Below, piece after piece: positions 8,656 through 46,759 of a stretch of 64,000 nucleotides of DNA. A program made the position numbers and the translations under genes. The notes under the pieces were generated by a model that made no database searches, was not told the DNA's origin, and saw nothing but the letters and a program-made list of their open reading frames with translations. Source of the stretch: a virus; the IMG/VR virus record IMGVR_UViG_3300025684_000014, positions 59,668 to 123,667 of that record; one strand, given 5' to 3'. Within the stretch, counting starts at the first letter, position 1. Each line of letters starts with the position of its first letter.

Positions 8656-10254
8656 ATGAATAGTCTTCCATATTTACAAATAGATGCAGAAAATTTAATT
8701 CCACATCCTTCTAATACTTACACTATTGTTTTAGATAAGTCTGAATTTTCTGAAAAGTTTCTATTGCAAACAGAGTCGTTTTCTTACAAAAATGATTCTT
8801 ACAAGAATGCTTTTCTTATAGTTTCTAAATATAAAAATATTATATCTGAAACAGCAGCTTTTTGTAATTGGATAGACACTTCCTACTCTCAAGAAGAAAT
8901 ACTTTTAACCTTTACTTCTTTTTTCAAAGTAAAGGTTAAACAAATTCTTTCTGGCAATAAACTTGCCTTTACTTTCCTATCTTTATCTGCTCATAAAAAA
9001 TATTATAATGATTTTTCTATTCTTTCTACTTATTTAAATTCAAATCTTTTATTTAAAGATTTTTTTATTTCTAAAGATAGAGAGAACTACAAAGATCCCA
9101 ATTACTTAAATAATATATATATACAACTATCTCCTCAGATAGACAAAGACTTTGAATTTTTCAATACTTCTAACCCTTCTAAACAATTAAATATTCTTTA
9201 TTCTTTATTATTAGAGACACAATTACTTTTAGAATTCCAAGAAGATCTATCGTTATCAAACGAATTATTTCCCAAAGAAGTTCTTATTAAATTAAAAAAA
9301 GAAAAAAAACGATTATCTAAAATGAATTCATCTAGTTCTGAATACTCAAATATTCAAGATTACATAGATCTTTTACTTGATATACCTTGGAATTCTTATT
9401 CTGAACAAACATTAAATCCAACTTTAATATCTAAAGAAATATCTAGTACTCACTATGGTTTAGAAAATGTTAAAGAAAATATTTTAGAGTACTTTTATCT
9501 TCACAAACTAACAGGCATAATGGATGGCGCCGTTCTTCTTTTCAACGGACCTCCAGGTACAGGAAAAACTACAATTGCCAAAGCTATTGCTAAAGCAACT
9601 AATAGAGAATTTATATCTATATCTTTAGCGGGTGTTGGCGATGAATCAGAAATTAGAGGCCACAGAAGAACTTACGTAGGTTCTAAACCTGGAAGAATAG
9701 TTTCTGCTATTGCTAATTCGAAAACTATGAATCCTATTATACTTATTGATGAATTAGACAAAATTAAACCTGACAAAGGAGATCCTTTTTCAGCTTTATT
9801 AGAACTTTTAGATCCTGAACAAAACTATGCTTTTATAGACAGGTATTTAGAAGTTCCAATCGATTTATCTAAAGTTACTTTTATATGCACTTCTAATTCT
9901 AAAAATAAAATTCCTGAACCTTTATTAAATAGATGTGAAATAATTGAATTTCAGAATTATTCTTTCGAAGAAAAAAAACACATTCTAATTAACTATATAA
10001 TTCCTAAAATCATCTCTAATTATAAACTTAAATCTTATAATATTATTTTTGAAAGTACTTTATTAGATTACTTGTCTAAACAAAAAGATTTAAGAAACTT
10101 AAAAAAGATAATTTCTAGATTACTAAGAAACAAAACCAAAAAGTTATTATTAGATAACTCTGACACCTTAATAACTTTAGAGCAGTATAAAAAAATATTT
10201 AACGTAACTACGCAAAATTCTACACGGAGAATTGGTTTTGCTACAAATATCTAG
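8656..10254 (+). CDS. Lon-like AAA+ ATPase lacking the protease domain
   Basis: The 532-residue protein carries a clear Lon-type AAA+ module. Walker A is GPPGTGKT (~298-305) and the Lon-specific stretch is IRGHRRTYVGSKPG, with the pore loop. Walker B is ILIDELDKI (~361-369), followed by ELLDPEQN and sensor 1 (ICTSN). It ends at RRIGFATNI, where Lon enters its Ser-Lys protease domain (usually GxxxGLAW), so the whole peptidase is missing. The ~270-residue N-terminal part is divergent. It is probably a stand-alone unfoldase or remodelling ATPase. A ClpP-like gene lies at 55.5 kb and the Ubl cassette is just downstream; either could be functionally linked. Confidence 0.85.
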   Translation: MNSLPYLQIDAENLIPHPSNTYTIVLDKSEFSEKFLLQTESFSYKNDSYKNAFLIVSKYKNIISETAAFCNWIDTSYSQEEILLTFTSFFKVKVKQILSGNKLAFTFLSLSAHKKYYNDFSILSTYLNSNLLFKDFFISKDRENYKDPNYLNNIYIQLSPQIDKDFEFFNTSNPSKQLNILYSLLLETQLLLEFQEDLSLSNELFPKEVLIKLKKEKKRLSKMNSSSSEYSNIQDYIDLLLDIPWNSYSEQTLNPTLISKEISSTHYGLENVKENILEYFYLHKLTGIMDGAVLLFNGPPGTGKTTIAKAIAKATNREFISISLAGVGDESEIRGHRRTYVGSKPGRIVSAIANSKTMNPIILIDELDKIKPDKGDPFSALLELLDPEQNYAFIDRYLEVPIDLSKVTFICTSNSKNKIPEPLLNRCEIIEFQNYSFEEKKHILINYIIPKIISNYKLKSYNIIFESTLLDYLSKQKDLRNLKKIISRLLRNKTKKLLLDNSDTLITLEQYKKIFNVTTQNSTRRIGFATNI

Positions 10255-11050
10255 TCAAGATAACCTTATCATTCCTTACCACAATAAAATTATTTCAAAA
10301 TGCGAAGCTTGTTTAAAAAACATACATCCTGATTTTTTAAACTCAAATCCTATAGTCAGTGGTAGTTATGCTATTAATTTGGTTTATTCCCCCGAGTCTT
10401 TTCATAATGACATTGATATATACTTTGCTTCTCAAAACGATTTTGATTTAGCTAAATCTTATATTGAAACTCTTTATCCTAATTCCAAAAAATTTCAAAC
10501 AGAAAATGCGATATCTTTTTCAATTGAAGAAAATAAAGAAGTTCAACTTATCTGTAAGTTTTTTCTTCCCCCGGAAGAGCTTATTTACAAGCACGATTTT
10601 ATTGTTAGTTCTGTCGCTATTTCTAATTCTAAAGTTTATACCACTTTAGAAACTTTTAAAGCTTGGTCTAAATCTGAACTTAGTTTTCGTGATTATCAAT
10701 TTCCCGAATCTAACAAAGATTTAAATAAAGTTTTCATTCGTTTATTTAATATAATTAATAGAATTGATAAATATTCTAAAAGATATTCACTTGATATTAC
10801 CCCTTCTACTTATCAAGATCTTAAATCTATTTACAATTTGATATCATCTAATGATTATTTAAATGAAAGTAATTTTATCGATTCTCCAAACATTCAAACT
10901 CCCGTATTGGATTATTATGGAAGAACTGTAAATTCAAAAATTACTTATAAAGAAATAATTTCTTCTTTGTACAAGTTTCTTAAAGAAGAAAATAGTGACT
11001 CAGATATACTCCCTCCGTCTTTTGAAAGAGACAATTTCTTTACTTTATGA
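10238..11050 (+). CDS. Nucleotidyltransferase-fold-like protein
   Basis: The ~270-residue product has SGSYAINL followed by FHNDIDIYF at residues ~42-65, resembling the GS...DxD active-site pattern of DNA polymerase beta-type nucleotidyltransferases. A helical C-terminal half follows. Substrate is unknown; the family includes toxin-like AbiEii/MNT, tRNA and protein nucleotidyl-transferring enzymes. The TTG at 10238 is chosen for its spacing to GGAG (10226-10229). The gene begins inside the Lon-like ATPase gene, so they are coupled. Confidence 0.5.
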   Translation: MLQISSQDNLIIPYHNKIISKCEACLKNIHPDFLNSNPIVSGSYAINLVYSPESFHNDIDIYFASQNDFDLAKSYIETLYPNSKKFQTENAISFSIEENKEVQLICKFFLPPEELIYKHDFIVSSVAISNSKVYTTLETFKAWSKSELSFRDYQFPESNKDLNKVFIRLFNIINRIDKYSKRYSLDITPSTYQDLKSIYNLISSNDYLNESNFIDSPNIQTPVLDYYGRTVNSKITYKEIISSLYKFLKEENSDSDILPPSFERDNFFTL

Positions 11051-11259: not shown

Positions 11260-13562
11260 TGTTTATAACAACTTATTTTGATAATTCACAACAAGATCTT
11301 ATTTTTCCCTATACCTTAAATAAGCATGGCATAGAAAAATGCATACAAGATCCTGATTATCTATTAAATTTTTTTGACGGTCGCGCTCATTCTATACCCG
11401 ACCTTCAATTATCTTTTTTAAATTCTCTTACTCAAAATTCTCAAATAACTACTTTTTCTACTTTATTAGATAAAATGAATCTTGAAAATCAAAATGAAAG
11501 ATTTGTTTTATCTGATTCTAATTTTTTTTCTACGGTTCTTTTTTCTGCTTTTAATAAGCAGAATAATTATAATATTACTACTAACTTAAGAAGATCTTTT
11601 AATTGGCGATATAATTTTAAAAATATCTCTAAATTTTATACTGAATTCTTTCTTTTTGATCAAGATGTTCATAATCGAAACTTAGAAAACGGTTATATTT
11701 GTTTTGATATTACACCAGATTTTAATCACTATTTTAACGAAGAAAATTTTGAATTAAAGTGTATTTCTTATTTAAAGAGAAATCTAATAGCTACTTTCAA
11801 TGATAAAAAAGTTTATTCTTTGATTTCAAAAACTTCTTATGATAACTATATTAAAGATATGGTTTTTCCAGAGGTTTTTGATTATTCAGAAATAAACCCT
11901 ACTAAAAATATAATTAATTTTGCTTCTTTAAGATCTACTTATCAGGCCAATCTTTTAGCATATTCTAAAGGAATTTTAATTAACTTTGATTTTGTATTTG
12001 AAAATAACTTATTTCAAGAAAAGCTAGAATCTTTAGATCAAACAAAAATTGATGTTATAAAAGTTCCTTCTTTTTCTTCAATTTCTAAAGACAATTTAAT
12101 TGAAAAAACTTCTTATACAAAAAATCAAGTCGTAAAAAGAAACACTTCTTTTACTCCTTCTTTTACTAAAATTAATGTTTTTGGTTTAAATTTTGAAATC
12201 GAAGAAATATATCTTTTAAATTTTTTCTCTCTTTATTCTCATTCTAATTTATCTTCAAGAAAACGTTCAGCTAGACGTTTTTTTGAATTTTATAATTTTC
12301 TTGTAGAAGAAGATTCTCTTCAAATTTTTAATAAAGATTTATATATCGATAGAATGAGACAAAAGTTTAAATCTTTGTTTATTTATTCTAGTGACTTCTT
12401 AAATAATCTTACTGATTCTCAAAAACAATATATTGTTAGTTTAAATCTTAAAAATAATTATAACCATTTTGATGAAAATTTAAATTCTTTAATTTTATCT
12501 TCTCCAAAAATTGATAAAAAGTTAGATTCAAAATACAAAAAGCTAAAAGAAAAAACCAACAAAAGCATTCTTTTTATGAATGATCGTTCTTCTTTGATAA
12601 ATAATTTACTTTACACTTCTGCTGAAATTAAAAAATTAAAAAAAGAGTTAGTTAAACTAACTCAAGATCTTGAAGAAAAATTGGCACAACAGAAAACTTA
12701 TTTTCAAAGATTTTCTACCGAAGCATCTTCTTTGTTTACTAATTATAATCTTTTTTTAACTATTAAAGATAAATATTTTAATGAATATGCTTCTGCTACT
12801 CAATATACTGTTGATCAATTTTTAAATAATTATAGTAATCAAGGAATAAATATAATTGATTTAAATTATACTTATCAAGATAATACTTATTCTATAAATT
12901 TTAAATCTTCTCAACAAGATGTAGCTAAATTTCTTCTTGCTAAAAAAGAAGGCGCTCTTCAGATTGAATCAATTACTTTTTCTACTTCTACCCCTACTAA
13001 AATAAACATTGTTGGTAATCAAGATTCCAGTGTTTATGGTGGGCCTTATGTTGTAAAAGTTACCAAGAATAGTATTAATATTTCTTTGAAAGATACTACT
13101 TCTATTTTTGGCTCAAACCTTTCTACTGGTGCTTGTTTTGTGCACCCTCACTCTGGCGCTACCAGCAGCATTGATAATCTTTATTATCCTAATTATTCTA
13201 GAGCTTGTTTAGGTGAAGCTTCCCCTTTGCTTTATAAAGCTTTTGAAGATAATGATATAAAACTTATTCTTATTTCTGCTATGACTTGGGTTTCTTCAGC
13301 TAACTCTGCTGATACCTGGGGGAAGAATTATATTTATTTTCCTAAAAAACTAGACATGATTCAACAAGAATCTAATTCAGTTTCTCTTTCTGATATTTCT
13401 GAAGAAGAAGTAATAGATTTTCTTTCTGTCTTTTCAGATGAGGATGAGGATGAAGACGATTCTCAACTTAATCAAAACGAACCCACCGATACAGTTGAGC
13501 AACAACCTGTTCAAGAAACACAAGAAACTGTTTACACAAGGTATACTGCTAATACGTTATGA
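11259..13562 (+). CDS. Large protein with C-terminal E2-like domain
   Basis: Of 767 residues, the first ~440 are an unrecognised Asn/Phe-rich region. A coiled coil follows (~448-494, EIKKLKKELVKLTQDLEEKL), then a C-terminal domain (~570-710). That domain looks like prokaryotic E2 (UBC-like) folds of Ubl operons: GGPYVVKVTKN, then H629-P-H631, then RAC650LGEAS with a candidate catalytic Cys, then a helix (LLYKAFEDNDI). An acidic Asp/Glu/Gln tail closes the protein. E2 enzymes take a Ubl from E1 as a Cys thioester. The call rests on the HPH...C pattern plus tight coupling (4-base overlap) to the JAB gene and then the E1-like gene. The size is far above a typical E2. Confidence 0.65.
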   Translation: MFITTYFDNSQQDLIFPYTLNKHGIEKCIQDPDYLLNFFDGRAHSIPDLQLSFLNSLTQNSQITTFSTLLDKMNLENQNERFVLSDSNFFSTVLFSAFNKQNNYNITTNLRRSFNWRYNFKNISKFYTEFFLFDQDVHNRNLENGYICFDITPDFNHYFNEENFELKCISYLKRNLIATFNDKKVYSLISKTSYDNYIKDMVFPEVFDYSEINPTKNIINFASLRSTYQANLLAYSKGILINFDFVFENNLFQEKLESLDQTKIDVIKVPSFSSISKDNLIEKTSYTKNQVVKRNTSFTPSFTKINVFGLNFEIEEIYLLNFFSLYSHSNLSSRKRSARRFFEFYNFLVEEDSLQIFNKDLYIDRMRQKFKSLFIYSSDFLNNLTDSQKQYIVSLNLKNNYNHFDENLNSLILSSPKIDKKLDSKYKKLKEKTNKSILFMNDRSSLINNLLYTSAEIKKLKKELVKLTQDLEEKLAQQKTYFQRFSTEASSLFTNYNLFLTIKDKYFNEYASATQYTVDQFLNNYSNQGINIIDLNYTYQDNTYSINFKSSQQDVAKFLLAKKEGALQIESITFSTSTPTKINIVGNQDSSVYGGPYVVKVTKNSINISLKDTTSIFGSNLSTGACFVHPHSGATSSIDNLYYPNYSRACLGEASPLLYKAFEDNDIKLILISAMTWVSSANSADTWGKNYIYFPKKLDMIQQESNSVSLSDISEEEVIDFLSVFSDEDEDEDDSQLNQNEPTDTVEQQPVQETQETVYTRYTANTL

Positions 13563-15560: not shown

Positions 15561-15776
15561 ATGTCTACTATTACTCTTGTTGTTATTCCTGGCCCTGGTG
15601 CCCGCACCGTAACTGTTCCTGATGGAATGACTGTTGAGCAACTTGTTGTTCAAGAGAATCTTCATGGAAGAGATATTATCGTTAATGGAGAAGGTGTTTC
15701 TCCTGGAACTTATTCAAGTACTCTTGTTACTCCAAGCTCTGAAATCTTTGCTACAGGTTCAGTAAAAGGTAACTAA
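15561..15776 (+). CDS. Single-domain ubiquitin-like protein
   Basis: The 71-residue product is one Ubl (beta-grasp) unit, nearly identical in layout to each repeat of the poly-Ubl at 16334-16975. It has TLVVIPGPGARTV (first hairpin), MTVEQLVVQENLHGRDI (helix and following strand), VNGEGV and the C-terminal FATGSVKGN. The C-terminus is not Gly-Gly but Lys-Gly-Asn, so JAB trimming of the Asn would expose a Gly, or conjugation may use another chemistry. RBS is AAGGAA. Confidence in the Ubl fold comes from its neighbours and the Prok_Ub-like pattern. Confidence 0.75.
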   Translation: MSTITLVVIPGPGARTVTVPDGMTVEQLVVQENLHGRDIIVNGEGVSPGTYSSTLVTPSSEIFATGSVKGN

Positions 15777-15781
15777 TTTTT

Positions 15782-16081
15782 ATGGGTGCTGAAACTTTCT
15801 ACGAGTTTTCTTCTGGAAAAACAGCCAAAGAAGCTTTTAGCAAAGCAGTTAAAGACGCTGCTTATCAATATGGTCACTCAGGATATACTGGATCTATTGC
15901 TGAAAAAAGTGATTTTTCTATGGTTACTGAAAAGACTTTTTCTTCTTCTGAAGCATGGAACCTTGCAAGGTCTTTAATTAGCACTGATTATTCAGATAAA
16001 TGGGGGCCTGCTGGATGCATACAGGTTCAGTCTGATTCTCAACAAAATATTTATCTTTTCTTTGGCTGGGCTTCTAGCTGA
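15782..16081 (+). CDS. Hypothetical protein paired with the Ubl genes
   Basis: The 99-residue product has a helix (SGKTAKEAFSKAVKDAAYQ), a GYTGSIAEK strand, TFSSSEAWNLARSLI, and ends with IYLFFGWASS. The same order of elements recurs in the 91-residue protein at 16991-17266, so the two look paralogous and flank the Ubl genes. Small alpha/beta proteins of this layout exist in phages without a known role. The ATG is preceded by a weak site. Confidence 0.55.
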   Translation: MGAETFYEFSSGKTAKEAFSKAVKDAAYQYGHSGYTGSIAEKSDFSMVTEKTFSSSEAWNLARSLISTDYSDKWGPAGCIQVQSDSQQNIYLFFGWASS

Positions 16082-16100: not shown

Positions 16101-16307
16101 ATGTCTAAAATTAATTTAATAAATGTAAATAAAAATTATCGATTAACTATAGCTTACCCAAAAGTACTTTCTTTACATCAATTCCTTTTTGATAATAATT
16201 CTTTGGGCTATAGAGCTATAGTTAATGGTAGAGATATATGTCGGAATGATTGGAAATATACTGTTTTACAACCAAATTCCGATGTACACTTACTTCAACA
16301 CTTTTAA
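16101..16307 (+). CDS. Divergent ubiquitin-like protein
   Basis: The 68-residue product aligns by pattern with the Ubl units: RLTIAYPKVLSLHQFL (strand and helix), YRAIVNGRDICRNDW (compare the VNG/ING motif followed by a Trp) and VLQPNSDVHLLQHF (compare PSDAEVFATGSVKGN). It lacks the Gly-rich C-terminal tail, so it is unlikely to be conjugated the same way. It may be a decoy, scaffold or sulphur-carrier-like relative. Confidence 0.55.
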   Translation: MSKINLINVNKNYRLTIAYPKVLSLHQFLFDNNSLGYRAIVNGRDICRNDWKYTVLQPNSDVHLLQHF

Positions 16308-16333: not shown

Positions 16334-16975
16334 ATGTCTACAATTACACTTGTTGTTATTCCTGGCCCTGGCGCTCGCACTGTAACCATTTCTGACTCTG
16401 CTACTGTTGCAGATCTTGCTTGCCAAGAAAACCTTCATGGTCGTGACATTATCATTAACGGTCAAGGCATCTCTCCTTCTCAATGGAGTTCTACTATCGT
16501 TCCTTCTGATGCAGAAGTCTTTGCTACTGGCTCAGTAAAGGGCAATACTAGTTCTGCAACACTAGTTGTGATTCCTGGTCCTGGCGCTCGAACTGTTTCT
16601 CTAGATGACTCTATGACGGTTAGTGATCTTGTTTGTCGTGAGAATTTGCATGGTCGTGACATTATCATTAATGGCGAGGGAATTTCTCCAAACCATTGGG
16701 AGACTCATCAAATTCCAGAAAACGCAGAGATCTTTGCTACTGGTTCTGTGAAGGGCAATACTGATATCGCGACCCTCGTCGTCATTCCTGGCCCTGGTGC
16801 AAGATCAATAACTCTTTCTCAAGATATGACTGTTGCAGATTTGGTTTGCCGTGAAAACCTTCATGGTCGCGACATCATTATTAACGGACAAGGTGTACCT
16901 CCAACTTCTTGGGAAACTACTACTGTCCCCCCTTCTTCAGAAATTTTTGCAACCGGCTCTGTAAAGGGCAATTAA
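16334..16975 (+). CDS. Poly-ubiquitin-like protein, three tandem Ubl domains
   Basis: The 213-residue product is exactly three 71-residue units (1-71, 72-142, 143-213). Each has LVVIPGPGAR, a variable strand, a helix ending in ENLHGRDIIING, and a terminal FATGSVKGN. The unit junctions are GSVKGN-TSSATL and GSVKGN-TDIATL. This is the layout of eukaryotic polyubiquitin and of prokaryotic multi-Ubl proteins, in which a peptidase releases monomers. The JAB protein two genes before the mono-Ubl gene is the natural candidate. The third unit uses more C-ending codons than the first, so the copies are not a recent identical duplication. Confidence 0.82.
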   Translation: MSTITLVVIPGPGARTVTISDSATVADLACQENLHGRDIIINGQGISPSQWSSTIVPSDAEVFATGSVKGNTSSATLVVIPGPGARTVSLDDSMTVSDLVCRENLHGRDIIINGEGISPNHWETHQIPENAEIFATGSVKGNTDIATLVVIPGPGARSITLSQDMTVADLVCRENLHGRDIIINGQGVPPTSWETTTVPPSSEIFATGSVKGN

Positions 16976-30426: not shown

Positions 30427-33317
30427 ATGTCTTCCTTTTTGAGAGAAGATGTTCTAAAAAAGATTGACCCTTATATAGATTTAGAAAGATATTCTCAAAT
30501 AGATCCTGATTATTTCAAGCAAGAAGTAATTATGGCTTCTTATGAAGATTTACACAGAATACAAGCTTCCTTATCTAACAATCTTTTTTATAAATCAAAT
30601 CCTCACAACTCTATTTTACTTTATTTAACTAAACTCACTGATGATTTTGATTTTAACAAAGCAAGATCAAATACTACTGGTGGCGCACCCCCCGATGTAG
30701 ACCTGGATCATGATGCATTAGATCGTGAAAAGGCTATTCAATGGTGTATTGATTATTGGGGCAGAGAGCGTGTTGCAAATATTATTACTCACGGTACATT
30801 TAAACCAAAGAGTTTAGCTCGTTCTTATTATCGAATTACCGAAAAAGATCAATCTGATCTTAATGATTTATTAGCAATGATCCCTCCCCCTAAATACGGA
30901 AAAGAAGCTACTCTTGAAGAAATATTGGAACAAAACCCCAACATTTCAGAAGAGCAAAGGTATGCAGCATTTCTTGAATTTGCTGACCGTATAGAAGATA
31001 TGGTTGCTAACTTTGGTATCCATGCTGCAGGTGTTATTATTTCTGATACTGAAATAAGTGATAACATTCCTATTTGGTCAAATAGTAAAGCAGATAGAAT
31101 AACTCAATACGATAAAGATGAATGCGAAGATCTTGGTCTTCTTAAATTCGACTTTCTTGGTATTGATACTCTTTCTGTTATTAAAGAATGTACAGCACTT
31201 ATTGAAGAACAAACAGGTGAAAAAATTGAACCTTACGCTATTCAAGATGGTGATGAACTAGCTTATAAATATCTCAATGAAGGATGTCTTACTGGAATTT
31301 TCCAAATGGAAACTTCTGGTACTGCCAAGAAATTAATACTTGATATTAAACCTCAAAGTATTGAAGATTTAAGTGCTATTAGCGCCATCAATTGGTGGCC
31401 TTAAAAGCGGGTCAATTGCGGGAAACTCCTTAGAGCTTTAACTACTAAATCTTATTAGAGATAATAAGGTGGCCAAGCTAATCACTTGGGTATAGTAAAA
31501 ATGTTGAAGATTGGACAATCCGCAGCCACGAATCCTAATCCGATTCAGGTTCAGAGACTAGGTGAGCACACCAGCTTACATTGAGTAATTGATGTAATGC
31601 GACCCCGCTACTCTTTTATTAAGAGGAATGATATAGTCCGTTTACTAGTGAAAGCTAGTAGTTAGGTCGAAAGGCCTAACTGTTTGACTTTATGAAGAAC
31701 ATCTTCTTCAGAATCGTCATATTTTATTATTAATAAATTGATATTATTTTGTTCACAAAAATCTTTTTTAATTTGATCACGTTTTTTACAGAGCTCAAAA
31801 TCTTCTTCTTTTTTATAAAAGAAATTTACATATTCGTAATGCTGTCTACCGTTATACTCGACAACAAGATTCAACTCTTTAAAATACGCATCGCACCTAA
31901 GTTTGTATTTATATTTTAAGCCAAAAAACTTTTTTTGTTTTTCTGCTTTTAACCCAAAGAGCTCTTCAAGACGCTCTATCCATATATTTTCAGAACTATA
32001 AAAAGTTCTTGGGCTGTATTCTAACCCAAAAAACTCACAACAGTTTTCGATATTTCCGTATCTTTTTAAAATTGTTACGCGGCTTATATTTGTAAATTTA
32101 TCTATGTTTTCTGAACAAATATTATCTTTTATTTTTAATAATTCTTTTTTAATATCTTCGTCTGAAAAATTTAACTGCTTGTTATCATATTTATTTATCT
32201 CAGGATGACCTTCAAAAAACCCACCGAAACTACCATAAAGTCTTCTATATACTTTGTGGTTTATTTTTCCATGTTTTTCTAGAAGTCCTTTAGAAAAAAA
32301 TCCAAATTCTTTTTCTAATCGCTTAGCTTCTAAAAGACAATCTTCTTTTGAATGAACTTTTCTTTTACTCCCTTTAGTACTTGTTGTTATTTTTGTGGTA
32401 TCTATCAGGTTGTGCATTTCTTTGAATGCGCCTAAAGATCCAAAATGAGTTCTAATACTTCTTCTAGTAAAGTCACAATTTTCTTCAACAAGAGGTACTG
32501 TTAAGCGCCCATGTACTTTATGAATAGCAAGCAATTCTTTTTCACAATCAGATTTAGATATTCTATGATGATTCATACGAAACCTTTCTTTGAGTATACA
32601 CCTATTATATACTCTTTGCTTAGGCTTGTCAAACAATTCCTTCGCAATCGCCCCGGGCCGCTACAAGCTGGTCTTGATAAAACTTATATTACAAATAAAT
32701 TAAACAACTCTCCGCCAGAAGATCTTCCAGAAAATGTAGCTGAAATACTTAAAGCTTCTTATTGGACTCTTATATACCAAGAACAAATTATGAGGCTATT
32801 TACTGATCTTGCTGGTTTTACACAACAGGAAGCTGATGATGTTAGACGAGCAATGGGTAAGAAAAAGCTTTCTGTTCTTGAGAAATATAAAGAGCAATTC
32901 CTTAATGGCGCAACTTCTATTGGTGGTCTTATGGCTGATTACGCTGATAGTTTATGGAATGATATTTTGGGTTTTGCTGATTATTGCCTTGCAGGTGATA
33001 CCGAAATATTACTTCCAATAGGTACTAAAAGATCAACAAAAATTAAAGATATTATTAAAGATCAATATAATGGTTTTGCTTTATCTTATGATACTCAAGT
33101 AAATAGTTGGTCTGCAGAGTCCCCTTATTGTGCTCAACATATATCTCAATGGCATGATAAAGGAATAAAAGATGTATACAGATATGTTTTAGAAGATGGT
33201 TCTTATGTTGATTGTACTGAAAATCATAGTTTTTTGTTAAGTAATAAAAAATCTTATGCTGAAATAGATAAAATTTATACTAAAAAATTAGAAATATATT
33301 CTACAAAAGATGATTGA
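30427..33317 (+). CDS. dnaE: DNA polymerase III alpha, piece B, with split-intein N-half
   Basis: Exons 30427-31388 and 32645-33317 join in frame. The first ~86 residues are unlike DnaE and may bind piece A. Then come the palm catalytic aspartates D90 and D92 (PPDVDLDHD), HAAGVIISD, and KFDFLG carrying the third Asp. The exon junction restores ISAINRPGPLQAGL, and LIYQEQIMRL, QQEADDVRRAMGKK and LGFADY follow. At C (32985) the extein ends and an intein begins: CLAGDTEILL, CTENHSFLLS. It stops at 33317 after 110 intein residues with no C-half. The matching half is at 45497. AAAGG precedes the ATG. Confidence 0.9.
31389..32644 (+). other. Group I intron in dnaE with antisense HEG
   Basis: The 5' exon end GCCAT pairs with GTGGC in the intron (P1 with U-G at the splice site). 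GCGGGAAACTCC (P3/P4 region), TTCAGAGACTA and GATATAGTCC (P7) are group I core elements. Two GAAA-tetraloop hairpins follow (31646-31659 region and 31661-31680), as expected for P9. The intron ends in G (32644). Splicing restores the DnaE motif NRPGPL. The 1256-nt length is explained by the minus-strand endonuclease gene inside it. Confidence 0.87.
31662..32576 (-). CDS. Homing endonuclease, Vsr/EDxHD type, antisense in intron
   Basis: The 304-residue protein starts at an ATG (32576) behind GAAAGG; the frame opens earlier, but without a better start. The N-terminal ~190 residues are repeated helical units (GSLGAF/YGSFGGF, each after a helix) likely used for DNA recognition. The C-terminal ~100 residues are a PD-(D/E)XK/Vsr-like nuclease: LRCDAYFKEL, VVEYNGRQHYEYV, DFELCKKRDQIKKDF and LLIIKYDD. 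This matches the EDxHD homing endonucleases known from phage introns. The antisense orientation is uncommon, and its stop codon lies inside the intron's last GAAA hairpin. Confidence 0.82.
   Translation of the reverse strand: MNHHRISKSDCEKELLAIHKVHGRLTVPLVEENCDFTRRSIRTHFGSLGAFKEMHNLIDTTKITTSTKGSKRKVHSKEDCLLEAKRLEKEFGFFSKGLLEKHGKINHKVYRRLYGSFGGFFEGHPEINKYDNKQLNFSDEDIKKELLKIKDNICSENIDKFTNISRVTILKRYGNIENCCEFFGLEYSPRTFYSSENIWIERLEELFGLKAEKQKKFFGLKYKYKLRCDAYFKELNLVVEYNGRQHYEYVNFFYKKEEDFELCKKRDQIKKDFCEQNNINLLIIKYDDSEEDVLHKVKQLGLST
32985..33314 (+). other. Split-intein N-terminal half (IntN) in DnaE piece B
   Basis: 110 residues from the first Cys: block A (CLAGDTEILL), a middle part (DKGIKDVYRYVLEDGSYVDC) and block B (TENHSFLLS), then a short charged end and stop. 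Length and order match the ~102-residue DnaE IntN of cyanobacteria. Blocks F and G are absent here and are found at 45497-45610. Confidence 0.9.
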
Positions 33318-45496: not shown

Positions 45497-45610
45497 ATGA
45501 AAATTGTATCTAAAGAATATTTAGGCAAGCAACAAGTTTATGATATTGGAATTTCTTCTTATACTAATAATCATAATTTCTTTTTAAAGAATGGCCTTGT
45601 TGCTCATAAT
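45497..45610 (+). other. Split-intein C-terminal half (IntC)
   Basis: 38 residues from the start Met to the terminal Asn, followed by the +1 Cys of the C-extein. Size and motifs are close to the 36-residue DnaE IntC of cyanobacteria (KYLGKQNVYDIG... HNFALKNG), including the penultimate His (VAHN). Its IntN lies 12.2 kb upstream on the same strand. Confidence 0.9.
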
Positions 45611-46759
45611 TGTTTTAATAAAGCTCACTCTGTGAGCTACTCTTTTCTTACTTACATTAGTGCATATTTAAAAGCTCATCATCCTGTAGAGTTTTTTACT
45701 GCGCTCATGTCTACTAGATCAAAAACTTTACAACCAAAAAGCTGGGCTGTAAAAGCTCCTGAATATATTTCAGAAGCTAAAAAGTTTGGTGTAGAAATAC
45801 ACCCTCCTAGTATAAATAAATCTGGTTTTGAATTTACTATTCATGGCACTGAAATTTATTTTGGATTAAATGCTATCAGGGATGTAGGTCAAACAGCTGC
45901 TAAGGCTATTATAAAAGCTAGAGGCAATGTTCCTTTCAAAGATGTTAAAGATTTTTTAAACAGAATCAATATGCAAAAAGTAAATACTAAAGTTTTTGAA
46001 GCTTTAGTACATGCTGGAGCTTTTGATCAAATGGGTTATTCTAGAAATGATCTTTTAGATTTTACGTCTGAAATATATAAATATATTAAAGACGTCGAAG
46101 ATTACAAACAACGAGAAATAGATTACGTTGAAAGAGAACAACATAACGCTACTGTTATTCCTTTAATTGAGCGACGTAATTTTCTTCGCAATGAAATAAA
46201 AAAAATTAATAATAGAATTTCAAAAGATAAACAAAAAGAAGACGATATAGACAATCTTCATATTTACGAAGAAGAGTTAGAGCCTCTTGAAGAAGCAGGT
46301 TACAAAAAGCTGCCTTCTTTAAAACGACATGATGTTCCTGTCTTTCCTGAAATACAGAGAACAAAATTTGTTCCTCTTACTCTTAAACAAATTATGGATC
46401 AAGCTCAATATATTGGTTGTTATATTGGTGGACATCCATTAGATCTTATATCTATCGAAAAAGACGATTTAGATACTCTTGTCCCTGGTTTGTATGCATC
46501 TGTTGCTGGAGTCGTGCTTTCGATTAAAGAAATAAAAACTAGAGCTGGTAAGCTTATGGCTTTTATCGAAATAGACGATTCTACTCGATCAGCAGAAATA
46601 GTTGTATTTCCCTCTACATGGACTAAGATAAAAGAAATTGGCATTCAAGAAGCCGATATAATAAAAGCTAGAGTAAAAGTTGAATCAACTGATCCTGATG
46701 TAAAACTTATATTAAATAAAATAGAAAGAATTGATATAAAAAATGAAATGGACTCCTGA
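45497..46759 (+). CDS. dnaE: DNA polymerase III alpha, piece C, with split-intein C-half
   Basis: The first 38 residues are an intein C-half: YLGKQQVYDIGI (block F) and NHNFFLKNGLVAHN (block G), ending Asn38. The C-extein starts with C39 (CFNKAHSVSYSF), which continues LGFADY of piece B exactly as DnaE does (usual form GYGFNKSHSVAY). Further on are helix-hairpin-helix material (FGLNAIRDVGQTAAKAI), the DnaE motif YIGGHPLD and the OB domain (VAGVVLSIKEIKTRAGKLMAF). Trans-splicing would give an 816-residue B+C chain. AAAGG precedes the ATG. Confidence 0.92.
   Translation: MKIVSKEYLGKQQVYDIGISSYTNNHNFFLKNGLVAHNCFNKAHSVSYSFLTYISAYLKAHHPVEFFTALMSTRSKTLQPKSWAVKAPEYISEAKKFGVEIHPPSINKSGFEFTIHGTEIYFGLNAIRDVGQTAAKAIIKARGNVPFKDVKDFLNRINMQKVNTKVFEALVHAGAFDQMGYSRNDLLDFTSEIYKYIKDVEDYKQREIDYVEREQHNATVIPLIERRNFLRNEIKKINNRISKDKQKEDDIDNLHIYEEELEPLEEAGYKKLPSLKRHDVPVFPEIQRTKFVPLTLKQIMDQAQYIGCYIGGHPLDLISIEKDDLDTLVPGLYASVAGVVLSIKEIKTRAGKLMAFIEIDDSTRSAEIVVFPSTWTKIKEIGIQEADIIKARVKVESTDPDVKLILNKIERIDIKNEMDS

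Follow-up and report, generated by a model that had tools for sequence, protein, structure and literature searches.

The C-terminal glycine is treated as a hallmark of the ubiquitin-like proteins (Ubls) that E1 enzymes activate, and the known E1-activated systems end, to our knowledge, in Gly. Eukaryotic polyubiquitin genes such as yeast UBI4 encode head-to-tail units that are cut into monomers, and in some of them one more residue follows the last Gly. Bacterial poly-Ubls with E1, JAB, and E2-like partners were predicted in 2006 (Iyer et al., PMC1779556), in operons (row 6e) with two to three tandem Ubls, an E1-like protein and a JAB that are usually fused to each other, and a protein of the E2/RWD fold whose E2-like domain was described as inactive. 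In the archaeal SAMP2/UbaA/HvJAMM1 system, activation by a single ThiF-type E1 is reversed by a JAMM protease (PMC4443979, PMC4895103), while the Bil (BilABCD) and Bub defense or stress operons are prokaryotic cascades of Ubl, E1, E2, and protease (PMC11354881; Bub is named in PMC13373217), with a separate Cys domain in BilD and with BilC exposing the C-terminal Gly of BilA. Within the E1 superfamily, MccB adenylates the C-terminal Asn of the heptapeptide MRTGNAN, which closes to a succinimide, and when the Asn of microcin C7 is replaced by Gly a thiol captures the MccB intermediate as a thioester (PMC12250964, PMC13255007). Activation of a C-terminal Asn is thus within the reach of an E1 fold, as MccB demonstrates.

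The window analyzed here is a stretch of 64,000 nucleotides (positions 59668-123667 of a virus record of 123,667 bases), from a large tailed phage, as marked by its tail, primase/helicase, and polymerase families. It encodes, on the same strand and in this order, a 767-aa protein, a JAB, an E1, a 66-aa Hc1-like protein, and then the Ubls (Table 1), and this cassette occurs in eleven divergent viral contigs, usually with PhoH next after it. The nearest solved Ubl by profile is archaeal SAMP2 (E values of 2.6e-7 to 6.9e-7), with IKGG/VSGG aligned to IKGN; unlike the phage Ubl, SAMP2 has a Gly-Gly end and is not repeated in tandem, and no E2 is known from its system. Set against the polyUbl operons, the cassette has its JAB and E1 as separate genes, its E2-like protein keeps HPH...Cys, and its Ubls end in KGN. 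It resembles Bil and Bub in being a cascade of Ubl, E1, E2-like protein, and protease, but differs from Bil in a 232-aa E1 with the Cys in its core, in the Asn end, and in being carried by phages. The extra residue of polyubiquitin follows GG and varies, whereas in the phage each unit has Asn in place of the terminal Gly. An N-terminal peptide-clamp domain of ~90 residues is present in MccB, which takes a heptapeptide and forms no thioester; the phage E1, with a predicted folded Ubl as its substrate, keeps an invariant Cys and has no such clamp, its GxGATGS motif beginning at residue 27, and with the clamp missing and Cys180 kept it is no MccB. In the literature searched, outside the primary Bub and Bil papers and the 2009 E1 survey, we found no description of Asn-ended Ubls. 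Poly-Ubls with E1/JAB/E2-like partners had already been predicted and Bil/Bub cascades are established; as far as that literature goes, Asn-ended Ubls are new.

Table 1. Positions of the Ubl genes and of the cassette that precedes them, numbered from the first base of the window.
Feature	Coordinates	Strand	Basis or remark
Large E2-like protein, 767 aa	11259..13562	+	Motif and profile match
E2-like domain, aa 526-712, with HPH...CLG	12834-13394	+	Within the 767-aa protein
JAB/JAMM metalloprotease, 360 aa	13559..14641	+	Zinc-site alignment; PADLOC JAB 9.3e-5
E1/ThiF-type adenylating enzyme, 232 aa	14638..15336	+	Pfam ThiF 3.8e-24; PDB profile matches
Hc1 (histone H1-like) small helical protein, 66 aa	15346..15546	+	Pfam Hc1 3.8e-10
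Mono-Ubl gene, 71 aa, KGN then stop	15561..15776	+	KGN codons 15765-15773
p99, 99-aa protein starting MGAE	15782..16081	+	Homologous domain C-terminal to 4-unit poly-Ubl in L014
Degenerate Ubl-like ORF, 68 aa, without KGN end	16101..16307	+	Ubl profile E 2.8e-4
Poly-Ubl gene, 213 aa, three 71-residue beta-grasp units	16334..16975	+	ORF translation
Ubl unit 1	16334..16546	+	KGN codons 16538-16546
Ubl unit 2	16547..16759	+	KGN codons 16751-16759
Ubl unit 3	16760..16972	+	KGN codons 16964-16972, then stop

The first-pass annotation had described a poly-Ubl of three 71-residue units ending in FATGSVKGN, a separate mono-Ubl also ending in KGN, and unit junctions KGN-TSS and KGN-TDI, and the translation bears all of this out, with FATGSVKGN closing the three units and the mono-Ubl alike. 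Compared pairwise, the three units have 48-51 of 71 residues in common (46-51 of 71 when the mono-Ubl is included as a fourth), with codon agreement at identical residues of 39-57% (37-57% for the four). Since only 37-57% of these codons agree, the similarity is old and has been kept at the protein level, and judged in this way the poly-Ubl is an old, selected repeat. Chance or a recent tandem duplication as the source of the repeats was ruled out because the codons differ, and so was a DNA-level constraint, the terminal Asn being encoded across relatives by AAT as well as AAC. A poly-Ubl of 3 x 71 residues is also found in the divergent virus L002 (loci are given here by L numbers). The earlier "exactly three" is not supported as a conserved property: units of 71 residues are mostly kept, but the Ubl genes of close relatives have 1, 2, 3, or 4 units, with tails of 0-33 aa past the last Asn, and units of 70-74 residues occur, so that neither "exactly three" nor "exactly 71" is a general rule.

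The Ubl is predicted to have the ubiquitin/ThiS/MoaD beta-grasp fold. An AlphaFold2 model of the mono-Ubl (pLDDT 91.9, 31-row alignment) matched SAMP1, ThiS, MoaD (TMq 0.84), and ubiquitin in Foldseek with a probability of 1.00, none of the matches having an E value of <0.001. The poly-Ubl itself matched NCBIfam thiS at an E value of 7.5e-8, below that model's cut-off, and Pfam ThiS at 2.9e-4, and divergent Ubl relatives matched Pfam SAMP2 (2.5e-9) and ThiS (3.4e-6) above both cut-offs.

The adenylation-site residues of the E1 (G27, G29, D51, D53, K74, and D118) and Cys180, the predicted thioester cysteine, are kept in 75 of 75 E1s, and its profile matches include ThiF, MoeB, and, at an E value of 4e-7, MccB. 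The Arg of the N-x-x-R-Q motif is Asn (N-x-x-N-Q) in 74 of 75 E1s; this Asn is also present in relatives whose Ubls end in Gly-Gly and is thus a feature of the clade. The JAB zinc-site residues E36, H109-S-H111, S119, and D122 are invariant in 12 aligned sequences. No match came from searching PDB profiles with the JAB alignment, and the L002 orthologue matched Prok-JAB at 0.0019, below that model's cut-off. The earlier proposal of a poly-Ubl with a co-encoded JAB is supported at this locus, and so is a co-encoded E1.

The E2-like domain of the 767-aa protein has HPH, CLG, AN, D, and WG as its invariants, with HPH...CLG in all 12 close relatives. Pfam returned no match for the domain of the window, and Foldseek found one close viral homologue and no UBC match in the PDB. 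Its profile matched the short E2-like neighbors of distant E1s (97.6% probability, E value of 4e-12); the profile of these short relatives (A12) in turn set HPHvssdGkpCLG against HPNIDEKGQVCL in human UBE2L3, an E2 (E value of 0.007), and Pfam UQ_con was found in only 2 of 17 relatives. The E2 identity of the 767-aa protein, which comes from profile comparison together with the motif, is the least certain of the four components. The conserved features of the E1, JAB, and Ubl, taken together with these E2-like profile matches, mean that at the sequence level all four components of a cascade are present.

Several neighbors accompany the cascade genes. The Hc1-like protein lies between the E1 and the mono-Ubl in nine aligned viruses, this one counted, and is a possible target of tagging. 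Upstream of the cassette, at 8656-10254, is a Lon-type AAA+ ATPase (TIGR00763 positions 258-575 of 795, E value of 5.9e-110) that apparently lacks a protease domain and is kept in several relatives. A 272-aa protein with a nucleotidyltransferase-like GS...DIDIYF motif (10232-11050) is conserved directly upstream of the cassette, and a nucleotidyltransferase was noted beside one Ubl operon type (PMC1779556). Elsewhere in the window, ORFs at 30427-31404 and 45497-46759 match parts 441-675 and 790-1055 of phrog_405, a phage DNA polymerase family, and the polymerase gene is apparently split.

The alignment of homologues that had been proposed as a check shows the KGN end to be conserved far beyond close relatives. 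The latter were found through Ubl patterns outside the C terminus or through the E1 and include one 4-unit Ubl gene with another domain fused to it; TG[SA]VKGN closes 31 of 31 of their units. For a wider set, and to counter bias toward the Ubl end, loci were gathered through the E1 (80) and through the JAB (50), and a Ubl profile trimmed of its last residues was run against them. This gave 95 distinct Ubl domains in 73 phage loci that carry this E1, most of them reached by way of E1 or JAB and not of the Ubl; across these 73 distinct E1 loci a Ubl is present in 70 and a JAB in 69. The reactive C-terminal Gly(-Gly) of the beta-grasp family is absent from the four units of the window, and 93 of the 95 domains end in Asn (KGN in 90; KAN, VGN, and GAN in 1 each), although the rows in these counts, as in those of the E1s, are related, some of them near relatives of one another, and are not independent. 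The two exceptions are L104 (QGG) and the second Ubl of L055. The penultimate Gly is kept in 91 of 95, which makes the Asn slightly more conserved than the residue before it, and the position after the Asn is a stop in 37 of 91 and is otherwise varied. Poly-Ubls of three (L141) and two units (L063 and L083) that are distant in similarity from the window also have KGN at every end. The comparison thus indicates that the KGN end is real biology that recurs across a wide phage group. Searches of INPHARED phage records found no poly-Ubl, and the E1 relatives there were of the GG type or different. Five loci (L006, L008, L011, L012, and L013) have Ubls with a common tail behind the KGN, N(A/G)PSxTGRPSGGGRGNNP..K.

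A first genome scan, with the Ubl alignment, gave no loci, and the E1 alignment, run against bacterial and archaeal genomes, gave 79; many of the contigs from the latter may be phage or prophage. GG-ended Ubls occur in Myxococcales, Methylomirabilota, Chloroflexi, and Ignavibacteria beside the same HN-x-[PA]-N-Q E1 and HPH...C[LW]G protein, and Asn-ended Ubls occur in Melainabacteria (RGN/VGN), a Gallicola MAG (VKGN), and a Gammaproteobacteria MAG (VKGN). An ungapped alignment places the Asn on the terminal Gly of the GG-type relatives (LVKQIKGN / LVPKIKGG), and in solved SAMP2 sequences LIKGG is likewise aligned to KIKGN. On an E1 tree of 105 rows, whose deep branch is weakly supported (70), the Asn/GG label requires 3 changes, versus 23 for shuffles. 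The phage locus L104, with its QGG-ended Ubl, has an E1 in the GG group, and the bacterial loci L225, L181, and Melainabacteria, with GN ends, have E1s in the Asn group. With four long-branch or doubtful rows set aside, E1 position 141 is Glu in 80 of 80 Asn-type and Asp in 24 of 24 GG-type enzymes, and the residue after the catalytic Cys is Gly, Asn, or Asp in the Asn type versus mostly Thr in the GG type. These differences are what an E1 adapted to another Ubl end would show, but they may be lineage markers instead; Glu141/Asp141 in particular could mark lineage and not determine specificity. Two further loci were noted. On an Allochromatium humboldtianum contig (L167, 3482-3998), two Ubls that end in AKSAS/AKSAA, neither GG nor GN, lie next to an E1 of the same type and an HPH...CLG protein, and the Xanthomonas jumbo phage PhiXhv-15 (L020, 4733-8612) carries a GG-ended Ubl-like protein (KASGG), an HPH...CLG protein, and a related E1 annotated as a thiamine biosynthesis protein.

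We consider it probable, from these comparisons, that the cassette encodes a phage Ubl conjugation cascade (Ubl, E1, E2-like protein, and JAB) in which Asn is the mature C terminus of the Ubl. The cleavage, its exact position, the activation, the conjugation, and the biological role that we infer would be as follows. The poly-Ubl would be a precursor that the neighboring JAB cuts after each Asn, between KGN and TSS and between KGN and TDI, releasing monomers that correspond to the mono-Ubl. Adenylation by the E1 would take place at the Asn carboxylate; the Ubl would then pass to the invariant Cys of this E1, next to the Cys of the E2-like protein, and finally onto a target. The JAB would recycle conjugated Ubl, and the system would serve, during infection, to modify proteins of the phage or the host. 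Asn in an acyl-adenylate or a thioester could cyclize to a succinimide, which makes a terminal Asn a difficult choice chemically unless the cyclization is prevented or put to use by the E1. Use of the side chain, with the E1 adenylating the terminal Asn to give a C-terminal succinimide as in MccB, and Cys or a target Lys opening it to an Asp/isoAsp-linked conjugate that Gly-specific deubiquitinases could not remove, strikes us as improbable.

The Asn might also be a one-residue extension (or the first residue of one), so that the JAB would cut between Gly and Asn and the E1 would act on a Ubl ending in a single Gly, as Ufm1 and Atg8 do. Precursor extensions past the reactive Gly are common in Ubls, a JAB is almost always co-encoded, the Gly is likewise highly conserved, and a JAB that needs Asn at P1' would keep the Asn invariant under this cutting too. 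However, the C-terminal arm would then be one residue shorter than in the GG type, yet the alignment is ungapped; two natural Ubls have replaced the Gly by Ala and kept the Asn (KAN in L096 and GAN in L145); and 37 genes or units stop exactly at Asn, while no Asn-type gene stops at Gly. In L014 (one case, of low identity), a fourth unit is joined as KGN-GAEGFIE to a p99 domain, and stand-alone p99 proteins begin MGAE, MGAQ, MGAT, MGSS, or MGAC. The Asn sits where the stand-alone protein has its start Met, and cleavage behind it would therefore leave the N terminus that Met removal is expected to yield. The first-pass annotation had offered both removal of the Asn by the JAB and use of a C terminus after it. 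The comparison favors the latter, because the Asn takes the place of the terminal Gly without a change in length and is the more conserved of the two residues, and because nothing past it is conserved, many genes stop right there, and the GN-GAE fusion fits. We therefore judge removal of the Asn to be rather unlikely.

Other functions were weighed for the Ubl as a whole. As a sulfur carrier like ThiS/MoaD, it would be adenylated and converted to a thiocarboxylate for biosynthesis, with no tagging of proteins, and its fold, its best family matches (ThiS/MoaD/SAMP2), and the ThiF and MoeB matches of the E1 fit such a role. We think this very improbable, given that tandem Ubls are untypical of such carriers, that the E2-like HPH...Cys protein and the JAB are conserved, and that a nonsystematic look at neighboring ORFs noticed no rhodanese, cysteine desulfurase, or thiamine/molybdopterin genes. 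The poly-Ubl could alternatively stay uncleaved as a fused scaffold or binding protein whose repeats give avidity; two-domain Ubls of the ISG15/BilA kind exist, and L044, L046, L049, L050, and L052 each fuse two unlike Ubl domains that both end in KGN. An uncleaved scaffold nevertheless seems very unlikely, because in relatives the poly-Ubl comes together with mono-Ubls of identical end, tails of varying length past the last Asn, fusions, and a JAB, and copy number varies from 1 to 4 while internal and terminal KGN are equally invariant. Intein-like self-cleavage by Asn cyclization at the KGN junction was considered as well.

Of the readings weighed, the one we prefer, a conjugation cascade with Asn as the mature end of the Ubl, puts the position of JAB cleavage and the residue choice of the E1 within reach of direct tests on three or four small proteins. 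The Glu141/Asn-type and Asp141/Gly-type enzymes would offer a natural E1 pair for the study of how Ubl ends are read. If it is true, phages carry E1-E2-JAB systems with Asn-ended Ubls, self-contained Ubl cascades would join the known tools of phages, and the Gly rule would be no chemical necessity.
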